Assembly (NCBI RefSeq): GCF_947495565.1
Contig: NZ_CANLZM010000005.1
Coordinates: forward strand, 124,001 to 188,000
Direction of reading: 5' to 3'
From: an uncultured Pontibacter sp.
GTDB taxonomy: Bacteria > Bacteroidota > Bacteroidia > Cytophagales > Hymenobacteraceae
DNA: 64,000 bases
Position 1 is the stretch's first letter, and every line of letters starts with the position of its first letter. Shown here in pieces: positions 11,936 through 51,552 of the stretch. The notes beneath the pieces were generated by a model, which was not told the origin of the DNA, made no database searches, and saw only the letters and a list, made by a program, of their open reading frames with translations. A program made the translations under genes and the position numbers.

Positions 11936-12139
11936 GGGTATTTATACTTTTAGCTAAATGCAAAGGTCGTAAAAAATTGACGAATGTACGTTATATCAGG
12001 TGCCTCCCGTGAAGATGCCCGGTTTATACGTTGGCGGGTTCGGGTAAAAAGTTAGCTTAAAGCGATGAAAGACTTTTGCAAGTGATTGCCATTCCCTCGA
12101 TTAAAGAAGCAGATAAATCTGTGAAATCTATATGCTGTT

Positions 12140-12236
12140 GCGAGCTTGCAACTCATATCCTCTTTAGTCAAAGCTGCATTAATTAGAAGTTGAATGTATA
12201 TAGCATTGCGCTTTAAGGTACTAGCTGCAAGCTCGC
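12140..12236. repeat. Diverged intergenic repeat bounded by an inverted repeat
   Basis: GCGAGCTTGCA (12140-12150) and TGCAAGCTCGC (12226-12236) are perfect 11-bp inverted repeats about 75 bp apart. They resemble the ends of the dispersed element seen better at 17632, 24941 and 41907, so this may be an old or solo copy. The rest of the 11936-12349 gap holds no gene. Confidence 0.45.
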
Positions 12237-12349
12237 ACCAGCGAAGGGTGTGCAGCGGTAATTTACACTTTGGCAGGTGAGGGGAAATATACTATCTTAA
12301 ACGTCGAAATGCCTTTTTATAGGATCAAATTATACTTAAACCAATACCT

Positions 12350-16480: not shown

Positions 16481-17527
16481 ATGGATAAAAGCGCGGATAT
16501 AAACTGGCTGAAGTGGCTGCAGTATACAGTGCTGGTTTCGGTGATTTTATACTTCGGGAGCACACTGTTTATACCGCTTAGCTTTGCCCTGCTTATAAGT
16601 TTTGTACTTTATCCTATCTGCCTTTGGCTGGAGCAGAAAAAACTGCCGCGTTGGGCCGCCATTGCGCTGTGCCTGTTGCTGCTACTGGTGCTGGTTGGCG
16701 GCTTGGGTTTTCTGCTGGTGCGGCAAATAATACGCTTCGGAGAGGAGTGGCCGCAGCTGCAGGGCAAGCTGAAAGCCGCCTGGGGAAATATCAGTACTTA
16801 TGTGGAGCACCATTTTGGCATAGACGCTGCCAAGCAGGTAACCTGGGTAGAGGGAATGGCATCTGATGTGGCTTCTTCGGCGTTTACTACGTTGCAGGGT
16901 ATAGTCTATACTTCCGCCGTTTCGCTGGTGCTGCTGGTGCTGATCCCGATTTACGTGGCGCTTATACTTTACAACCGCGAGCAATTAGCCAAGGCCTTAA
17001 AATCCTTTTTTCCGCAAAACGAGCATCGCAAAATCCGGCAAATCCTCCACGAAACCATCTCCACATACTACAATTTTATCAAAGGCATGGCCATCGTATA
17101 CCTGGTGGTAGGAGTTTTAAACAGCCTGGGCCTGTTGCTGATTGGTGTGCCGCATGCCATCTTTTTTGGTGTGGTGGCCTCTGTGCTTACGTTTATACCT
17201 TATGTAGGCATCACCATCGGAGCTATACTTCCCATGACGGTCGCCTGGATCACTTACGACTCTATCTGGTATCCGCTGGGTGTGGTGCTGGTGTTTGGTG
17301 TGGTGCAGTACTTAGAGGCGAACCTCATTTTTCCGTGGGCCGTAAGTGCGCGGCTGCAGGTAAACATGCTCTTTACCTTACTGGCTATTGTGGCGGGCGG
17401 TATACTTTGGGGCGCCTCCGGCATGATTTTGTTTATACCATTCCTAGCCATACTTAAGCTGATAGCTGATAAGCATCATCGCATGCGTCCGTTGTCGCTG
17501 CTGCTGGGCAGTGGTAAAGAAAAATGA
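16481..17527 (+). CDS. AI-2E family transporter (PerM/YdiK type)
   Basis: 348-residue membrane protein with the AI-2E exporter layout: two N-terminal helices, a helix pair after WLEQKKLPRWAA, a soluble stretch (about 85-135) and four or five C-terminal helices with the conserved FIPYVG and QYLEANLIFP segments. The family includes TqsA (autoinducer-2), sodium/proton antiporters and transporters of unknown cargo; the substrate is not inferable. A second, diverged member lies at 44738. Five TATACTT copies fall in the gene, mostly read as Ile-Leu. Confidence 0.9.
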   Translation: MDKSADINWLKWLQYTVLVSVILYFGSTLFIPLSFALLISFVLYPICLWLEQKKLPRWAAIALCLLLLLVLVGGLGFLLVRQIIRFGEEWPQLQGKLKAAWGNISTYVEHHFGIDAAKQVTWVEGMASDVASSAFTTLQGIVYTSAVSLVLLVLIPIYVALILYNREQLAKALKSFFPQNEHRKIRQILHETISTYYNFIKGMAIVYLVVGVLNSLGLLLIGVPHAIFFGVVASVLTFIPYVGITIGAILPMTVAWITYDSIWYPLGVVLVFGVVQYLEANLIFPWAVSARLQVNMLFTLLAIVAGGILWGASGMILFIPFLAILKLIADKHHRMRPLSLLLGSGKEK

Positions 17528-17631
17528 TTTTGCGAGCAATTGCACCAGTTAAGATACTGAATTGAATAGCCAAAAACTATCCTCCTTGAATAAGGCGATA
17601 ATAAGGACATAAAAGTATAAAACAAGCTAAC

Positions 17632-17771
17632 CTACCGCGAGTTTTCAATTCGTGGGTTTCCCATGGCAGTAAACTTTCAGCTTGCGTTAACCTGCAGTAT
17701 TTAAATCTATACTTCTGAAAGCTGAAAGTTTGCCCCATGACAAGCCACAAGATGAAACCTTGCGGCAGTAG
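17632..17771 (-). repeat. Dispersed ~140-bp intergenic repeat, full copy
   Basis: Read on the minus strand it runs CTACTGCCGCAAGG... to ...AACTCGCGGTAG. Its two halves fold on each other: ends match as imperfect inverted repeats (16 of 21 bp), and AAACTTTCAGCTT/AAGCTGAAAGTTT are a perfect 13-bp pair inside. The block GAAGTATAGATTTAAAT is shared exactly with the copy at 24941, and the GAAAGTATAGAT part with 41907. It occupies most of the gap between the AI-2E gene and the clpC terminator. Confidence 0.8.
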
Positions 17772-17830: not shown

Positions 17831-17859
17831 AAAAGGCTACCCGAAGCGGGTAGCCTTTT
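17831..17859 (-). terminator. clpC terminator
   Basis: Perfect 13-bp stem AAAAGGCTACCCG/CGGGTAGCCTTTT with a 3-nt loop, followed leftward by TTGTTG. It stands 24 bp beyond the clpC stop. Confidence 0.85.
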
Positions 17860-17882: not shown

Positions 17883-20480
17883 TTACTCTTTTGTTTTATC
17901 TGAGTCAGATGATTTGGTTGGCTCAGTTTCTTCTGCCTCATCCGAAGCGCCTTTGGCTTTTTTGTCGTTAGACTTTTTGGATGTGAAGCTCAGCTTCTCT
18001 TCGCCTTCCTTATAATCCACCTGAATTAAATCACCCTGATTTACCTCAGCTCTCAGAATCTCTTCCGCAATCGGATCTTCGATGTACTTCTGAATAGCAC
18101 GGTTCAGCGGACGAGCGCCATACTTCGGATCATAGCCTTTCTCGGCCACAAAGTCTTTCGCTTCTTTTGTCAACTCGATAGTATAGCCAAGGCTTTCAAC
18201 ACGAGTGAATAGCTTGTTAAGCGACAGCTCGATGATCTTGTGCATGTCCTCACGGTTAAGCGAGTTAAACACAATCACATCATCCAAACGGTTCAGGAAC
18301 TCAGGCGAGAACGTCTTCTTCAGGGCGCTGGCAATAGTGCCTTTCATAATGTCATCCACGTTCTCCTGCTTTGTCTTAGACATGAAACCGATACCGGCTC
18401 CGAAGTCCTGCAGGTCTCTTGCACCGATGTTTGAGGTCATGATGATGATCGTGTTACGGAAGTCAACCTTGCGGCCAAGTCCGTCTGTCAGAATACCATC
18501 ATCCAGCACTTGCAAGAGCAGGTTGTACACATCCGGGTGCGCTTTCTCAATCTCATCCAGCAATACCACAGAGTATGGCTTGCGACGGATTTTCTCAGTC
18601 AGCTGGCCACCTTCTTCGTAACCAACATATCCTGGAGGCGCTCCTACCAAGCGAGATACGCTGAATTTCTCCATGTACTCACTCATATCGATACGCACCA
18701 AAGAATCTTCCTTATCGAAGAGGTAAGTGGCAAGCACCTTGGCAAGCTCCGTTTTACCTACACCCGTTGGGCCTAGGAATACAAAGGAACCGATTGGCTT
18801 CTTCGGGTCTTTCAGACCAACACGCGTACGCTGGATGGCTTTTACCAATTGGCCGATCGCTTTGTCCTGGCCAATTACTTTGCCTTTCAGCTCTTCGCCC
18901 ATGTTCAAAAGCTTCACGCCTTCTTTCTGTGCGATACGCTTCACCGGAATACCTGTCATCATGGCAATAACCTCTGCCACATTTTCCTCTTTTACCTGGT
19001 AACGCTTTTTCTTGGTCTCTTCTTCCCAGTTCTTTTTAGCAGTTTCGAGCTGATCAATAAGTTTTTTCTCCTTATCGCGTAGCTGGGCAGCTTCTTCATA
19101 CTTCTGGCTCTTCACCACGCGGTTTTTCTCTACCTTGATGTTCTCGATCTGCTCTTCCAGCTTCAGGATATCATCCGGCACCACAATGTTGTTGATGTGT
19201 ACGCGGGCACCTGCTTCGTCCAAAATATCGATAGCCTTGTCTGGCAGGAAGCGGTCGCTCATGTAGCGGTCTGATAGCTTCACGCAGGCCTCAATGGCTT
19301 TATCGGTATAATTTACGTGGTGGTGGTCCTGGTACTTATCCTTAATGTTGTTCAGGATTTCGATAGTCTCCTCTGGTGTGGTAGGGTCCACCATTACAAT
19401 CTGGAAACGACGGGCCAACGCGCCATCTTTCTCGATGTACTGGCGGTACTCATCCAGGGTAGTGGCACCGATGCATTGGATCTCGCCACGGGCAAGCGCA
19501 GGCTTGAACATGTTGGAGGCATCCAAAGAACCAGAAGCGCCACCGGCACCTACAATCGTATGCAGCTCGTCGATGAACAGGATCACGTCCGGAGACTTCT
19601 CAAGCTCGTTCATTACGGCTTTCATACGCTCTTCAAACTGGCCACGATACTTGGTGCCAGCCACCAGCGAGGCAAGGTCCAGGGTTACCACACGCTTGTT
19701 AAACAGCACGCGGCTTACCTTTTTCTGCACAATGCGCAGGGCCAAACCCTCGGCAATGGCGGTTTTACCAACACCAGGCTCACCTATAAGTATAGGGTTG
19801 TTCTTTTTACGGCGACTCAGTACCTGGGCCACACGCTCAATTTCTTTTTCTCGACCAACGATTGGGTCCAGCTTATCGTCCTCGGCCAGCTTGGTTAAGT
19901 CGCGGCCAAAGTTATCTAGCACCGGAGTGCGTGACTTCTCGCCTGGCTTTTTGCTCGAAGAGCTGCCTGCGCGTGACGATGAGCTACCAAACAGTTTGTC
20001 CGAATCATCAGAATCATCAGTGTCTGACGATGCCAGCGGATTATTGCTATGATAATCCAGCGAGTCTCTTATTGCTTCGTAGTTCACGTTGAATTTCGCT
20101 AAAATTTGTGAAGAAATATTGTCCTCGTCCCGTAGGATGGACAACAGAAGGTGCTCTGTGCCGATAATATCGCTTTTAAAGATCTTTGCCTCTAAGTATG
20201 TTATCTTAAGCACCTTTTCGGTCTGTTTCGTCAGGGGGATACTGCCGGTAATATTGCTGCTTTGCGATGCTGTATTTCGTGTAGCCTGTTCTAAAGCGTA
20301 CTTTAATTCATCTATCGAAACGCCAAGCTTCTTCAGCAGCGAGATGGCTGTACCTTCTCCTTCCCGAATCATACCAAGCACTAAATGTTCAGTGCCAATG
20401 TAGTCATGGCCGAGCCGGATTGCTTCCTCCCGGCTGAGCGAGATGACCTCTTTTACTCGGTTTGAGAATTTTGCTTCCAT
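17883..20480 (-). CDS. clpC: ATP-dependent Clp protease ATP-binding subunit ClpC
   Basis: 865 residues. ClpC unfolds proteins and feeds them to ClpP; it is a hexameric cytoplasmic AAA+ machine. Domains in order: double Clp-N repeat (1-145), an acidic/Ser-rich linker (150-185), first AAA+ module with Walker A GEPGVGKT (233-240), a coiled middle region with a UVR-type segment ([14 protein letters not shown]), second AAA+ with GPTGVGKT, and a C-terminal Lys/Glu/Ser tail. The middle region is of ClpC rather than ClpB size. Strongly codon-biased with only one TATACTT copy in 2.6 kb, in line with high expression. No clpP is nearby. Confidence 0.96.
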
Positions 20481-24924: not shown

Positions 24925-24940
24925 GGTTGTGCTATCAAAA

Positions 24941-25072
24941 CTGCCGCAAGATTCCATTTTGTGGCTTTTCCTGGGACAAGCTTTCAGCTTGCAGAAGTAT
25001 AGATTTAAATGCAGCCGGTAAAGCTAGACCTGTCTCTACTGGGGTAAGCCCACCCATGAAAGCTGCGCTCGC
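24941..25072 (+). repeat. Dispersed intergenic repeat, second copy
   Basis: Begins CTGCCGCAAG and shares long stretches with the complement of the copy at 17632: TTTTGTGGCTT, the hairpin CAAGCTTTCAGCTTG (24977-24991) and GAAGTATAGATTTAAAT. The right half is more diverged but ends in GCGCTCGC as expected. No gene lies in the 563-bp gap that holds it. Confidence 0.75.
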
Positions 25073-35400: not shown

Positions 35401-35408
35401 TAGCTTTG
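35401..35408 (+). promoter_or_regulatory. -7 element (TAGCTTTG) of the first desaturase
   Basis: Exact TAnnTTTG 35 bp before the ATG at 35444. Its last base coincides with a GTG that would otherwise be a candidate start, which argues for the downstream ATG. Confidence 0.5.
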
Positions 35409-35443
35409 TGTGGGTTTATTTTTCATCACACCATTACCCAAAC

Positions 35444-36556
35444 ATGAAGCTTAAAGGCAAAGTAAAATTCGTATCCAAAGATAAAAACCTCTTTTTCGCT
35501 ACCCTCCGCAAGCGCGTAGACGCTTATTTTAAAGAGAACAATATCCCTAAAACGGCTAACACGGCCATGGTCGTGAAAAGCGTGGTGCTGCTGTTAATGT
35601 ATGTGCTGCCGTTTGTGGCCATTCTGGCGCTACAGCCTGCTTGGCCACTTAGCCTGCTGCTGTGGTTTGTAATGGGTCTGGGCGTGGCCGGTATTGGCAT
35701 GAGCGTAATGCACGACGCCAATCACGGCGCCTTCTCCAGCAATAAAAAAGTTAACTTCCTGATGGGGCATACTTTGAACCTGGTAGGCGGGTCGGCCTTT
35801 AACTGGAAGCTGCAGCACAACATCCTGCACCATACTTACACCAACGTAGTGGAGATGGACGAGGACATTCAGGACAGGCTGGTGCTACGATTCTCGCCGC
35901 ATACTAAGGTAAAGTTCTTCCATAAGCTGCAGTGGGTGTACGCCTTCATGTTTTATGGGCTGCTTACATTGTACTGGGTAGTGGCAAAAGATTTTGTGCA
36001 GTATGGTCTTTTTATTAAAAATGGAGTAAATGTCAACACTGCTTCAGAAAACAAATCCATGCTTCTGAAGCTTGTAATAATGAAGTTGCTATACTTTTTT
36101 GTAGTGTTAGCGGTGCCCACGCTGTTTTTCGGGATTCCTTTTCTGGAGGTGCTGCTTGGCTTTCTGCTGATGCACTTTGTGGCGGGTATTATACTTACAG
36201 TGGTGTTTCAGTTGGCGCACACGGTGGAGGGCACCAGTCACCCAAGGCCTGATGCGCATGGCAACATCGAGAATGATTGGGCCATCCATCAGCTAAACAC
36301 AACGGTTAACTTCTCGCGGAATAACAAGCTGCTGTCCTGGTACGTGGGCGGCCTTAATTTCCAGATAGAGCACCACCTGTTTCCGCGTGTCTGCCATGTG
36401 CATTATCCGGCTATCGCGCATATCGTAAAGGAAACAGCTGCCGAGTTTAATATCCCTTATCTCGAAAACGAAACGTTTTTAAAGGCCGTACGCTCTCATA
36501 TTGCTACCTTGCACCGCTTTGGCAGGTTACCGAACATTAATGAGGCAATTGCTTAG
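35444..36556 (+). CDS. Acyl-lipid/acyl-CoA fatty acid desaturase, copy 1
   Basis: 370 residues, membrane-bound di-iron desaturase. The three histidine boxes are HDANH (90-94), HNILHH (125-130) and QIEHH (307-311), and hydrophobic helices flank them in the usual 2+2 layout. The Q-x-x-H-H third box and length fit front-end or delta-6/linoleoyl-type desaturases; regiospecificity cannot be read from sequence. The ATG at 35444 matches the tandem copy's start MKLKGKVKFV. It lies 83 bp ahead of the second copy, with the same direction. Confidence 0.92.
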   Translation: MKLKGKVKFVSKDKNLFFATLRKRVDAYFKENNIPKTANTAMVVKSVVLLLMYVLPFVAILALQPAWPLSLLLWFVMGLGVAGIGMSVMHDANHGAFSSNKKVNFLMGHTLNLVGGSAFNWKLQHNILHHTYTNVVEMDEDIQDRLVLRFSPHTKVKFFHKLQWVYAFMFYGLLTLYWVVAKDFVQYGLFIKNGVNVNTASENKSMLLKLVIMKLLYFFVVLAVPTLFFGIPFLEVLLGFLLMHFVAGIILTVVFQLAHTVEGTSHPRPDAHGNIENDWAIHQLNTTVNFSRNNKLLSWYVGGLNFQIEHHLFPRVCHVHYPAIAHIVKETAAEFNIPYLENETFLKAVRSHIATLHRFGRLPNINEAIA

Positions 36557-36639
36557 CATTTTTAAAATGCCAAGGTTTTTTTAAGGGACTCGAAAGTTTT
36601 AACTTAAGGGCCGATTTTACCAATTATGAAGTTTATTAA

Positions 36640-37758
36640 ATGAAATTAAAAGGCAAAGTAAAATTCGTTAACAAAGACAAAAGCCTGTTTTTCCCAACGC
36701 TGCGCAAACGTGTAGACGCCTATTTTACTGAAAACAATCTATCTAAGTCCGGTAACAATGCGTTGCTGACTAAAAGTATTATACTGCTGCTGCTTTACCT
36801 AGTGCCCTTTGCGGGGCTGCTGGCTTTTACGCCGGGCTTGTTTGTAAGTCTGCTGCTTTGGTTTGTGATGGGAATAGGCGTGGCGGGCGTTGCCATGAGT
36901 GTGATGCACGACGCCAACCACGGAGCCTTCTCCACAAACAAAACCATAAATTACCTGATGGCGCATTCTGTGAATCTGCTAGGCGCCTCGGCTTTTAACT
37001 GGAAGCTGCAGCACAATATACTGCACCATACTTATACCAACGTGGCGGATATGGACGAAGATATTGACGATATCGTGTTTATGCGTTTCTCCCCACACAC
37101 CAAAGTAAAGTTCTTCCATAAAATCCAGTGGGCATATGCATTTCTGTTTTACGGGCTGCTTACGCTGTATTGGGTTATTCTGAAGGATTTCGTTCAGTTC
37201 TTTAAATATATCAAAAGCGGCGTAAATGCCAACTCAAAAGCAAAGAACAGGGTTGCCTTCGCGAAGATTGTAGCATTTAAGGTGCTGTATTTCTTTTGCG
37301 TGCTTGTGGCACCGACGCTTGTTTTCGGAATACCGTTTCTTGAAGTTCTGGGTGGCTTCCTGCTGATGCATTTTGTAACCGGAATTATACTTTCCACGGT
37401 GTTTCAGTTGGCGCACACGGTGGAGGGCACCAGCCATCCGCTGCCTGGCGAGAATGGCACCATAGAGAACGATTGGGCTATCCACCAGCTCAACACTACT
37501 GCCAATTTCTCGCGCAGAAGCAGGCTGTTGTCCTGGTACGTAGGCGGCCTTAACTTTCAGGTAGAGCACCACCTGTTCCCGCGCATATCGCATGTGCATT
37601 ACCCCGCTATTGCCGATATTGTGAAGCAGACTGCCGCAGAGTATAATATTCCGTACCTTGAGAGCGAAACATTTGTGCAGGCCGTGCGGTCGCATTTAGC
37701 TACGCTGCACCGCTTCGGTAGGCTGCAGCTGCCCCGGCTAAGCGAGGTAATGGCCTAA
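36640..37758 (+). CDS. Acyl-lipid/acyl-CoA fatty acid desaturase, copy 2
   Basis: 372 residues, clearly a tandem duplicate of the preceding gene: near-identical N-terminus MKLKGKVKFVNKDK and the same boxes HDANH, HNILHH and QVEHH. Differences concentrate in the helices after residue 40 and the loop around 190-205, which could alter chain-length or position preference. Sharing of direction and short spacing allow one transcript. It ends before a perfect 46-bp palindrome that should terminate the pair. Confidence 0.92.
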   Translation: MKLKGKVKFVNKDKSLFFPTLRKRVDAYFTENNLSKSGNNALLTKSIILLLLYLVPFAGLLAFTPGLFVSLLLWFVMGIGVAGVAMSVMHDANHGAFSTNKTINYLMAHSVNLLGASAFNWKLQHNILHHTYTNVADMDEDIDDIVFMRFSPHTKVKFFHKIQWAYAFLFYGLLTLYWVILKDFVQFFKYIKSGVNANSKAKNRVAFAKIVAFKVLYFFCVLVAPTLVFGIPFLEVLGGFLLMHFVTGIILSTVFQLAHTVEGTSHPLPGENGTIENDWAIHQLNTTANFSRRSRLLSWYVGGLNFQVEHHLFPRISHVHYPAIADIVKQTAAEYNIPYLESETFVQAVRSHLATLHRFGRLQLPRLSEVMA

Positions 37759-41906: not shown

Positions 41907-42030
41907 TACTGCCGCGAGCTTTCAGCTTTTAAGGCAAGCTTTCAGCTTGCGAAAGTATAGATGCCGCTAATTATCGTAAGCTGAAGACTTACCCTCATGT
42001 CAAACCACGGACTGAAAGCTCGCAGGAGGC
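41907..42030 (+). repeat. Dispersed intergenic repeat, third copy
   Basis: TACTGCCGCGAGC... to ...GCTCGCAGGAGGC. GCGAGCTTTCAG on the left and CTGAAAGCTCGC on the right are perfect 12-bp inverted repeats. GCAAGCTTTCAGCTTGC (41934-41950) is an inner hairpin followed by GAAAGTATAGAT, as in the other copies. It lies in the 481-bp gap before the RhlE-type gene. Confidence 0.8.
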
Positions 42031-42322: not shown

Positions 42323-43705
42323 ATGACATTCGAGAATCTTAATTTGATAGAGCCAATCCTAAAAGCTCTTAAAACAGAAGGATACACTACCCCAACCCCC
42401 ATCCAAGCAAAATCAATCCCGCTTATACTTCAGAAAAAAGACCTGCTAGGCTGCGCCCAGACAGGCACCGGTAAAACAGCGGCTTTCTCTATTCCGATTC
42501 TGCAGTTGCTGCACGAAAACCAGGGAAATGACAAAGGACAGCGAAAGATCAAAGCACTTATACTTACACCAACCCGTGAGCTGGCCCTGCAAATTGGCGA
42601 TAGCCTTGCAGCCTATGGCAAGCACACCGGCCTGAAACATACTGTGATATTTGGCGGTGTGCCGCAAAAGAAGCAAACCGACGCCCTGCGTGCCGGCATA
42701 GATATTCTGGTGGCTACACCCGGCCGATTGCTGGACCTGATGGCGCAGAAGTACGTGCACCTGCAGCATATTGAGCTTTTTGTGCTGGATGAGGCAGACC
42801 GCATGCTGGATATGGGTTTTGTGAATGATGTGAGGAAGGTGCTGAAAGTGCTGCCGGAGAAAAAGCAATCGCTGTTTTTCTCGGCCACTATGGCACCGGA
42901 AATCATGAAGCTTTCTGATACTATACTGGTAGACCCTGCCAAGGTGGAGGTAACGCCGGTATCGTCTACAGCTAACACCATTCAGCAGTCGGTATACTAC
43001 GTGAAGGGCCCGGACAAGCGCAAGCTGTTGCTGCACCTGCTCAGGGATGAGGAGATGGAGAGCGTGCTGGTGTTTACCCGTACCAAACGCGGCGCCGACA
43101 GAGTAGCCAAAGATATTGCCAGTGCCGGTGTAACCGCAGAGGCCATACATGGTAACAAGGCACAGAACGCACGCGTAAGAGCGCTGGACAACTTTAAGTC
43201 TCGTAAAACACGTGTACTGGTTGCTACCGACATTGCCGCGCGTGGTATTGATGTGGACGACCTGAGCCACGTGGTAAATTACGAGCTGCCAAACGAACCT
43301 GAAACGTACGTGCACCGCATCGGGCGTACAGGTAGGGCAGGGGCAAGCGGCATTGCGCTATCGTTCTGCGGAGCTGATGAAGTGCCTTACCTGGCCAGCA
43401 TCCAAAAGCTGATCTCTAAAAACGTGCCGGTGATTGATAACCACCCGTACCCGCTAACTGCCAAAGATTTTGCTGAGGCAGCCAGCACTATAAAAGAACA
43501 GAAGAAAAAAGGCGGCAGCAGAGGCGGTCGTGGTAACTGGGGCAATAAGCCGTCCGGTGAAGGCCAGCAGCGCAGCGCCGGTAGCAGCAACGGTACCCAA
43601 AGCCGCAGCAGCAGTGCCAACAGCAACAGACCTGCAGGTGGCCCCCGCAATAGCGGTGGCGGCAACAGACGCTGGAGCAGCAGTAAGCCAAAGACAAACG
43701 CTTAA
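42323..43705 (+). CDS. DEAD-box RNA helicase (RhlE type)
   Basis: 460 residues. Core motifs are complete: Q motif [11 protein letters not shown], Walker A AQTGTGKT (45-52), [13 protein letters not shown] in [16 protein letters not shown], and [10 protein letters not shown]. The C-terminal 70 residues are Gly/Arg/Ser/Asn-rich, an RNA-binding tail. It should remodel rRNA or mRNA structures in ribosome assembly or decay, as RhlE and CsdA do. Long leader and solitary position. The last two bases of its stop codon are part of a hairpin shared with the convergent gene. Confidence 0.93.
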
Positions 43706-43778
43706 GTATAGTCTTATAAAGTATAAAGTCCTGCCGGAGATGATCTGGCAGGACTTTATACTTTATAAGACTATACTT
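43704..43778. terminator. 32-bp perfect hairpin joining the stop codons of convergent genes
   Basis: Left arm 43704-43735, loop 43736-43746 (11 nt), right arm 43747-43778, perfectly complementary over 32 bp. Each arm contains two TATACTT/AAGTATA copies. The left arm starts inside the helicase stop codon and the right arm covers the last codons and stop of the EamA gene, so it terminates both. Confidence 0.85.
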
Positions 43779-51517: not shown

Positions 51518-51552
51518 GCTTGCGTTGCAGATGGGCTTACATTGCGGCAGTA
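51518..51552 (-). repeat. Fragment of the dispersed intergenic repeat
   Basis: On the minus strand it begins TTACTGCCGC and continues to CGCAAGCT, similar to the ends of the copies at 41907 and 24941, but lacks the GAAGTATAGAT core. Assignment is tentative. Confidence 0.35.

Follow-up and report, generated by a model that had tools for sequence, protein, structure and literature searches.

REPINs have been described as doublets of REP sequences that form hairpins (Bertels and Rainey 2011, PMC3116915). The canonical REP and BIME elements of enterobacteria and pseudomonads, whose hairpins carry GT[AG]G at their 5' foot, are intergenic palindromes that occur in inverted pairs and are linked to a REP-associated tyrosine transposase (RAYT). 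The persistence and decay of REPs after RAYT loss have already been modelled for Pseudomonas and Stenotrophomonas (PMC3686654). In Bacteroidetes, tnpAREP subclass 2.6 (group 5 of the RAYTs in the Bertels classification) is flanked by atypical structures that lack the GT[AG]G guide (PMC6006769). Within the literature that our search covered, no REP or RAYT study naming Pontibacter was found. Here we describe a repeat family from a Pontibacter genome that very probably consists of RAYT-dependent, non-autonomous REP doublets of the REPIN or BIME kind, with one clade of RAYTs that lies beside clpB in relatives and a gene that is absent from this site in the genome under study.

The family was noticed in a window of 64,000 nucleotides (positions 124001-188000 of contig C5) of a 4.52-Mb draft genome in 44 contigs, hereafter G000, and was searched with R1, a covariance model of the 56-nt half-unit (Table 1). 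The first-pass annotation had listed three well-preserved copies and two fragments in the window. The copy at 17632-17771 is indeed a full doublet, and that at 41907-42030 is also a doublet, but with a shortened first unit. At 24941-25072, 'well preserved' holds for a single unit, the rest being spacer (blastn covers positions 7-89 of the 146-nt query). Neither fragment is supported as a member of the family: R1 does not match 51518-51552 even when filters are off and the threshold is relaxed to E≤10, and 12140-12236 gave R1 scores of only 12.3 and 10.4 bits (E of 0.08 and 0.3) and fits instead a unit that flanks another RAYT clade. This type C unit is a single hairpin, CGCTGGCGCGAGCTTGCAGCTCGTGCC, with which 24 of 27 bases agree at 12217-12243 on the minus strand and 20 of 27 at 12133-12159 on the plus strand, the best of 20 mononucleotide-shuffled windows reaching 19. 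None of the three RAYTs seen in G000 belongs to the clade that matches the type C doublet. The Clp ATPase gene next to the full doublet scores 953.9 bits with TIGR03346, under the cut-off of 1232.1. Elsewhere in the window, at 35408-37758, two adjacent genes are diverged duplicates, with 300-nt stretches that are 72-77% identical and 1196 bp apart.

Table 1. Repeat units, spacers and neighbouring genes in the window
Feature	Position	Strand	Evidence or remark
REP unit (two hairpins), first half of full doublet	17630..17687	+	R1 62.9 bits
27-nt doublet spacer; 3' end TATACTT (17708-17714)	17688..17714		between units
REP unit, second half of full doublet, facing the first	17715..17770	-	R1 70.5 bits
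REP unit of half element; no recognisable partner	24939..24994	+	R1 64.5 bits; blastn query 7-89 only
Shortened REP unit, first half of doublet	41907..41952	+	R1 51.8 bits
21-nt spacer, starting with AAGTATA	41953..41973		between units
REP unit, second half of the 41907 doublet	41974..42030	-	R1 57.5 bits
Type C REP doublet (single-hairpin, outside the R1 family)	12133..12243		match to type C unit
Neighbouring gene for an AI-2E family transporter; 103 bp between its end and the 17.6-kb doublet	16481..17527	+	PF01594 172.4 bits
Neighbouring gene for a Clp ATPase (ClpB/ClpC type), in convergent orientation to that of the transporter	17883..20480	-	Clp_N, AAA_2, ClpB_D2-small

The repeats are neither confined to the window nor unique to their places in this genome. 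A blastn search with the 17.6-kb copy, as the annotation had suggested, gave 17 matches in G000 including the query itself; the core GCAAGCTTTCAGCTTGC has 33 matches at no more than two mismatches, compared with none for the reversed pattern, and R1 found 48 units at E<1e-3 and 60 at E≤0.1. Within the genus, at E≤1e-3 and among the matches listed, 43 of 50 genomes contain units, and the number per genome ranges from 0 to 88. Outside it, at E≤1e-4, 29 of 150 sampled genomes from the family's other genera contain them; of 51 stretches in named genomes that match the core hairpin, 16 are from Pontibacter. All 12 close pairs (<200 bp) in G000 face inward and form doublets of 112-141 bp with spacers of mostly about 17-29 nt, the model matches overlapping in one doublet. 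At the loci of relatives, 45 of 48 neighbour pairs face inward and three do not. Under the 200-bp rule, the 20 doublet units among the 48 of G000 score higher than the 28 singlets (60.9 versus 45.2 bits, p=3e-4). The earlier statement that the copies lie in gaps only was largely borne out, as 29 of the 30 best units are outside predicted genes, compared with 23% of random positions at the same loci. In some doublets of G000, homology extends 25-45 bp outward and includes an outer word, AAGGCTACSATTAGG; this extension is not supported as an independent repeat (22 matches in G000 versus 16 for the control) and looks like a subfamily flank.

Each unit of 56 nt runs from a foot (consensus CTG or CTA, then CCGC) through hairpin H1 (CCGCRAGNT TTC ANCTYGTGG) and a link of about 13 nt to hairpin H2 (GCAAGCT TTC AGCTTGC); the canonical GT[AG]G was not found at the 5' foot of the hairpin. 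In 58 chosen units from G000 and relatives, a set (A4) that was picked by high score and is thereby biased towards intact stems, 98.4% of stem cells are paired, and the stems contain 102 double changes, compared with 25.4 after shuffling and 2-5 in slid controls. For the 16 half-units of G000 used for R1, 90.0% of cells are paired and double changes number 16 versus 7.3 shuffled; by a weaker measure, in which both sides of a pair have changed, the count is 5 versus 3.2, a level that 57 of 500 shuffles also reached. On the unit strand, 51 of the 58 chosen units have G-T as the third pair of H1. Because this pair would be A-C on the opposite strand, the unit has one strand that it prefers for folding, which is what a single-stranded DNA substrate should show. 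The full 17.6-kb doublet folds as DNA far better than its shuffles (z of -6.08), and two of the five units in the window fold no better than shuffles (z of -0.25 and +0.65). A single long hairpin is predicted for 44 of 48 doublets. However, arms of the same doublet are no more alike (identity 0.737) than arms of different doublets (0.754), and co-variation across the long hairpin was not found. Therefore, the long hairpin is not specifically kept, and it was dropped as the selected form.

In the genus, 43 of the 50 genomes have RAYT-like genes (PF01797) among the matches listed. The survey covered 112 RAYT loci, each taken with some 1.5 kb of flanking sequence to either side (less at contig ends); 30 came from the PF01797 search, 80 further loci were taken in listed order provided that they had an open frame of at least 150 aa and no stop, and two were from G000. 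Some R1 match at E≤0.01 was present at 44 of the 112. The best unit reaches 61-77 bits at eight loci, the next best locus having 42.8 bits, and these eight are the only RAYTs at least 80% identical (80-100%) to the query RAYT, itself one of the eight, among the matches listed in a genus-wide search, the next being 65% identical. The copy in G008 contains a stop. In a tree of 98 RAYTs, seven of the eight could be placed, and they group in a single clade (SH-aLRT 98) that requires one change. The tree is a quick one with long branches (L220, L206 and L019), and its rows are the 112 loci less 14 in which the motif filter gave no open reading frame (L191, one of the eight, included) and less L018 (<140 aa), with L252 added. 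As in REPINs, the cognate RAYT is flanked by the same units in the eight relatives, which is not the case in G000. The description of the repeats as non-autonomous and BIME-like is thus upheld by their inverted pairs, their intergenic placement and the one RAYT clade that they flank in eight relatives. Because of the doublets, the intergenic placement and the match between RAYT and unit, we regard the family as REP- or REPIN-like with a cognate RAYT, and not as a MITE with terminal inverted repeats and target-site duplications. The strong association with one RAYT clade suggests that the R1 family is mobile in sister species.

The cognate RAYT is recognized by NCBIfam as a REP-associated tyrosine transposase (NF047646, 87.1 bits, cut-off 80), and the motif [NS]H[VI]H ... 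Y[LV]H[QH]NP is close to the NH[LIV]H / YIH[QN]NP of subclass 2.6 (PMC6006769). Motifs and phylum fit this subclass, of which the RAYT is a candidate member. Other RAYT clades have other units, type C and type B, the latter having the same two-hairpin plan with a longer H1 and a different H2. As type B units are also found near RAYTs of a second clade (L142, L128 and L170), the matching of RAYT and REP is not strict outside the cognate clade. Four genomes (G035, G034, G017 and G027) contain many high-scoring units and no RAYT that is at least 80% identical among the matches listed.

All eight relatives have a clpB-like gene 0.66-1.7 kb from the RAYT. Gene order at this site was aligned between G000 and the relatives G004, G016 and G020. 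In G000, an esterase gene (PF00756) and clpB (TIGR03346 1296.7 bits, cut-off 1232.1) are 214 bp apart, with one degraded unit of 44.5 bits between them, and the sequence aligns with that of G004 except for about 790 missing base pairs, which correspond to the first doublet, the RAYT and one unit. The cognate RAYT is absent from the clpB site of G000, which is contiguous in the assembly. A unit at that distance from clpB has likewise been kept in G035 (37.3 bits) and G025 (61.1 bits), with no RAYT of the clade among the matches listed. The RAYT-like genes of G000, among the matches listed, are C2:49283 (intact, 49% identical to the query RAYT), C8:172781 (51% identical, with a stop) and C19:47594 (31% identical), and all three have other hairpins at their flanks. 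The first (L252, C2:49283-49819) is an intact RAYT of another clade (103.3 bits, cut-off 80) with its own hairpins, GCGGAGCTTAGCTCCG and GCGAATCTTAGATTCGC. The RAYT with the internal stop (L018, C8:172781-173293) has CTTTCGGATTTGCAATCCGAAAG hairpins at its flanks. Inside the unit clusters of G000 at C9 and C8, no RAYT was found. Because the cognate RAYT is missing, the copies in G000 look stranded, and they are probably immobile and decaying. We infer that the absence of the gene reflects a loss, for which recombination between the doublets at its flanks is the likely route. The units of G000 might also be served by a RAYT from another clade.

The elements also turn over between genomes. At the 17.6-kb site, R1 scores of 76.4 and 21.6 bits mark the doublet in G020, G027 has a weak unit of 33.8 bits, and there is no match at E≤0.01 in G004, G016, G001, G023, G011 or G026. 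The element at C12:131222 is common to G000, G004 and G020 and is missing from G016, which by RAYT identity is closest to G020; here 27 bp in G016 replace 272 bp in G020, so that the missing stretch is larger than the element. Presence and absence thus differ between species with no exact junction: no clean empty site was found at 17.6 kb or at C12, and neither excision nor new insertion was seen. At the orthologous 17.6-kb site (L257, L265 and L266), G016, G011 and G026 carry a different inverted repeat (GTCATYCTGAAAGGA ... TTCTKWACAGAATGAC), from which it appears that the gap attracts or tolerates several hairpin families.

The first-pass annotation had offered MITE-like as well as BIME-like behaviour. 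A classical MITE, that is, an internally deleted IS with terminal inverted repeats that is moved by a DDE transposase, would share the inverted ends, the length and the interspersed copies of the doublets, and the outward homology of some of them could be read in the same way. However, 50 doublets gave no signal of the target-site duplications that the annotation had proposed to look for (mean boundary repeat 2.66 versus 2.50 shuffled, with 39 of 200 shuffles as high), and the associated transposase that it had also proposed to look for was not found among the listed open reading frames at C9 and C8, where units of G000 stand 0.7-1.6 kb apart. This explanation was dropped because of the missing duplication signal and the lack of a transposase between these spaced unit pairs. 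It also fails to accommodate units that stand singly (28 of 48 under the 200-bp rule), covariation confined to the individual unit, the co-location of units with another kind of transposase, the RAYT, and an outer word that is barely above its control genome-wide, and we consider it scarcely credible. It is very unlikely, too, that the repeats are transcribed 3'-end elements (terminators, mRNA stabilisers or attenuators) that are kept for gene regulation and are not mobile. Their position downstream of genes would suit such a role (16 of the 29 intergenic units are convergent, 13 tandem and none divergent, counted as units, some of which belong to one doublet), as would the strong fold of the full doublet. 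Against it are the wide range of copy number among the matches listed between genomes of the genus, the scattered presence of the 17.6-kb element among relatives, a separate terminator-like hairpin that already exists at 17831-17859, and the lack of any Rfam match in the window. The repeats may nevertheless have such a role as a secondary one.

A third explanation accepts the family and disputes its orphaning: the cognate RAYT of G000 could lie in an assembly gap, or the RAYT at C2:49283 could serve the units, and the unit at the clpB site would then be an independent copy. The assembly is a draft, and the C2 gene is intact. However, the conserved RAYT site is contiguous in G000 and lacks the gene, and the C2 RAYT belongs to another clade and has other hairpins at its flanks; we give this explanation a small but appreciable chance. 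REP doublets dependent on a RAYT that is absent from the clpB site of G000 are the reading that we prefer.

The word AAGTATA had been taken to link the repeats to TATACTT, because it occurs in the block. It is present there, and it is frequent far beyond the repeats. Under a third-order model, no other 7-mer of the window is as over-represented (138 observed versus 27.8 expected on both strands), and the single-base neighbours of the word mostly have 4-19 copies each, AAGTATG having 48. G000 contains 8095 copies (3975+4120, strand-symmetric) versus 436 (217+219) of the reversed word. Across the genus, roughly half of the 50 genomes show a strong excess of the word, with others near background. 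G008, G030 and G034 are rich in R1 units, although the word is near background in them (1.3 to 1.5 times the control). Among doublet spacers at the loci of relatives, taken between neighbouring plus and minus units within 200 bp and not all independent, as some elements are orthologous, the word occurs in 12 of 24 in word-rich relatives but in 0 of 20 in these three word-poor genomes (p=1e-4; 0 of 1 in G039). With a 60-bp rule, the counts are 11 of 23 and 0 of 14 (p=2e-3), and in G000 the word is present in 6 of 11 spacers, or in 7 of 12 when counted over whole elements. Therefore, the proposed link is not supported: AAGTATA as a part of the element is ruled out by the doublets without it in word-poor genomes. 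Since these genomes are rich in R1 units and their spacers lack the word, something else appears to lay AAGTATA over the element, and our guess would be that it behaves like HIP1 or like an uptake sequence. A 35-nt inverted repeat (97% complementary), consisting partly of AAGTATA words, is found at 43704-43778 of the window, at the end of an RhlE-type helicase gene. The repeat family is now separated from the genome-wide word, which deserves a study of its own.

Like REPINs, the R1 family is inverted, intergenic and tied to a RAYT, and its doublets are better conserved than its singlets (PMC3116915). It differs in that each half consists of two hairpins in a row, in that pairing is kept within units and not between the arms of one doublet, and in its size of tens of units, whereas REPINs number hundreds to thousands (PMC3116915). 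With the canonical REP and BIME elements it shares RAYT-linked intergenic palindromes in inverted pairs, but the 5' foot is CT[AG] before CCGC and not GT[AG]G. It resembles subclass 2.6 in its Bacteroidetes hosts and in flanking structures that lack GT[AG]G (PMC6006769), a comparison made by description, the accessible text of that paper giving no unit anatomy. The R1 family is thus REP- or REPIN-like, a variant in its bipartite unit and its lack of GT[AG]G, and is probably orphaned in G000.

By analogy with described systems, the doublet would become single-stranded, and a Y1 (HUH) RAYT of the Bacteroidetes subclass would recognize the hairpins of the units. As for TnpAREP (PMC8266576, PMC6006769), it would bind the unit strand in its folded form and make its cuts at the foot or at the edges of the doublet. 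It may then copy or move the doublet to new intergenic sites. We can further speculate, as a possibility that is less likely than not, that these Bacteroidetes RAYTs read a two-hairpin code (H1 and H2 on one strand, with no GTAG guide) of which each clade has its own, that RAYT loss from the clpB site left dated, decaying REPs, and that a separate process writes AAGTATA into free spacer DNA, the spacers of REPs included.

In summary, the analysis defines a specific unit whose stems covary, matches it to a RAYT clade that occupies one fixed place on the chromosome, and identifies genomes that have the gene as well as genomes that lack it. This makes it possible to test directly how units are recognized in the absence of GTAG, and what becomes of REPs once their RAYT is lost.
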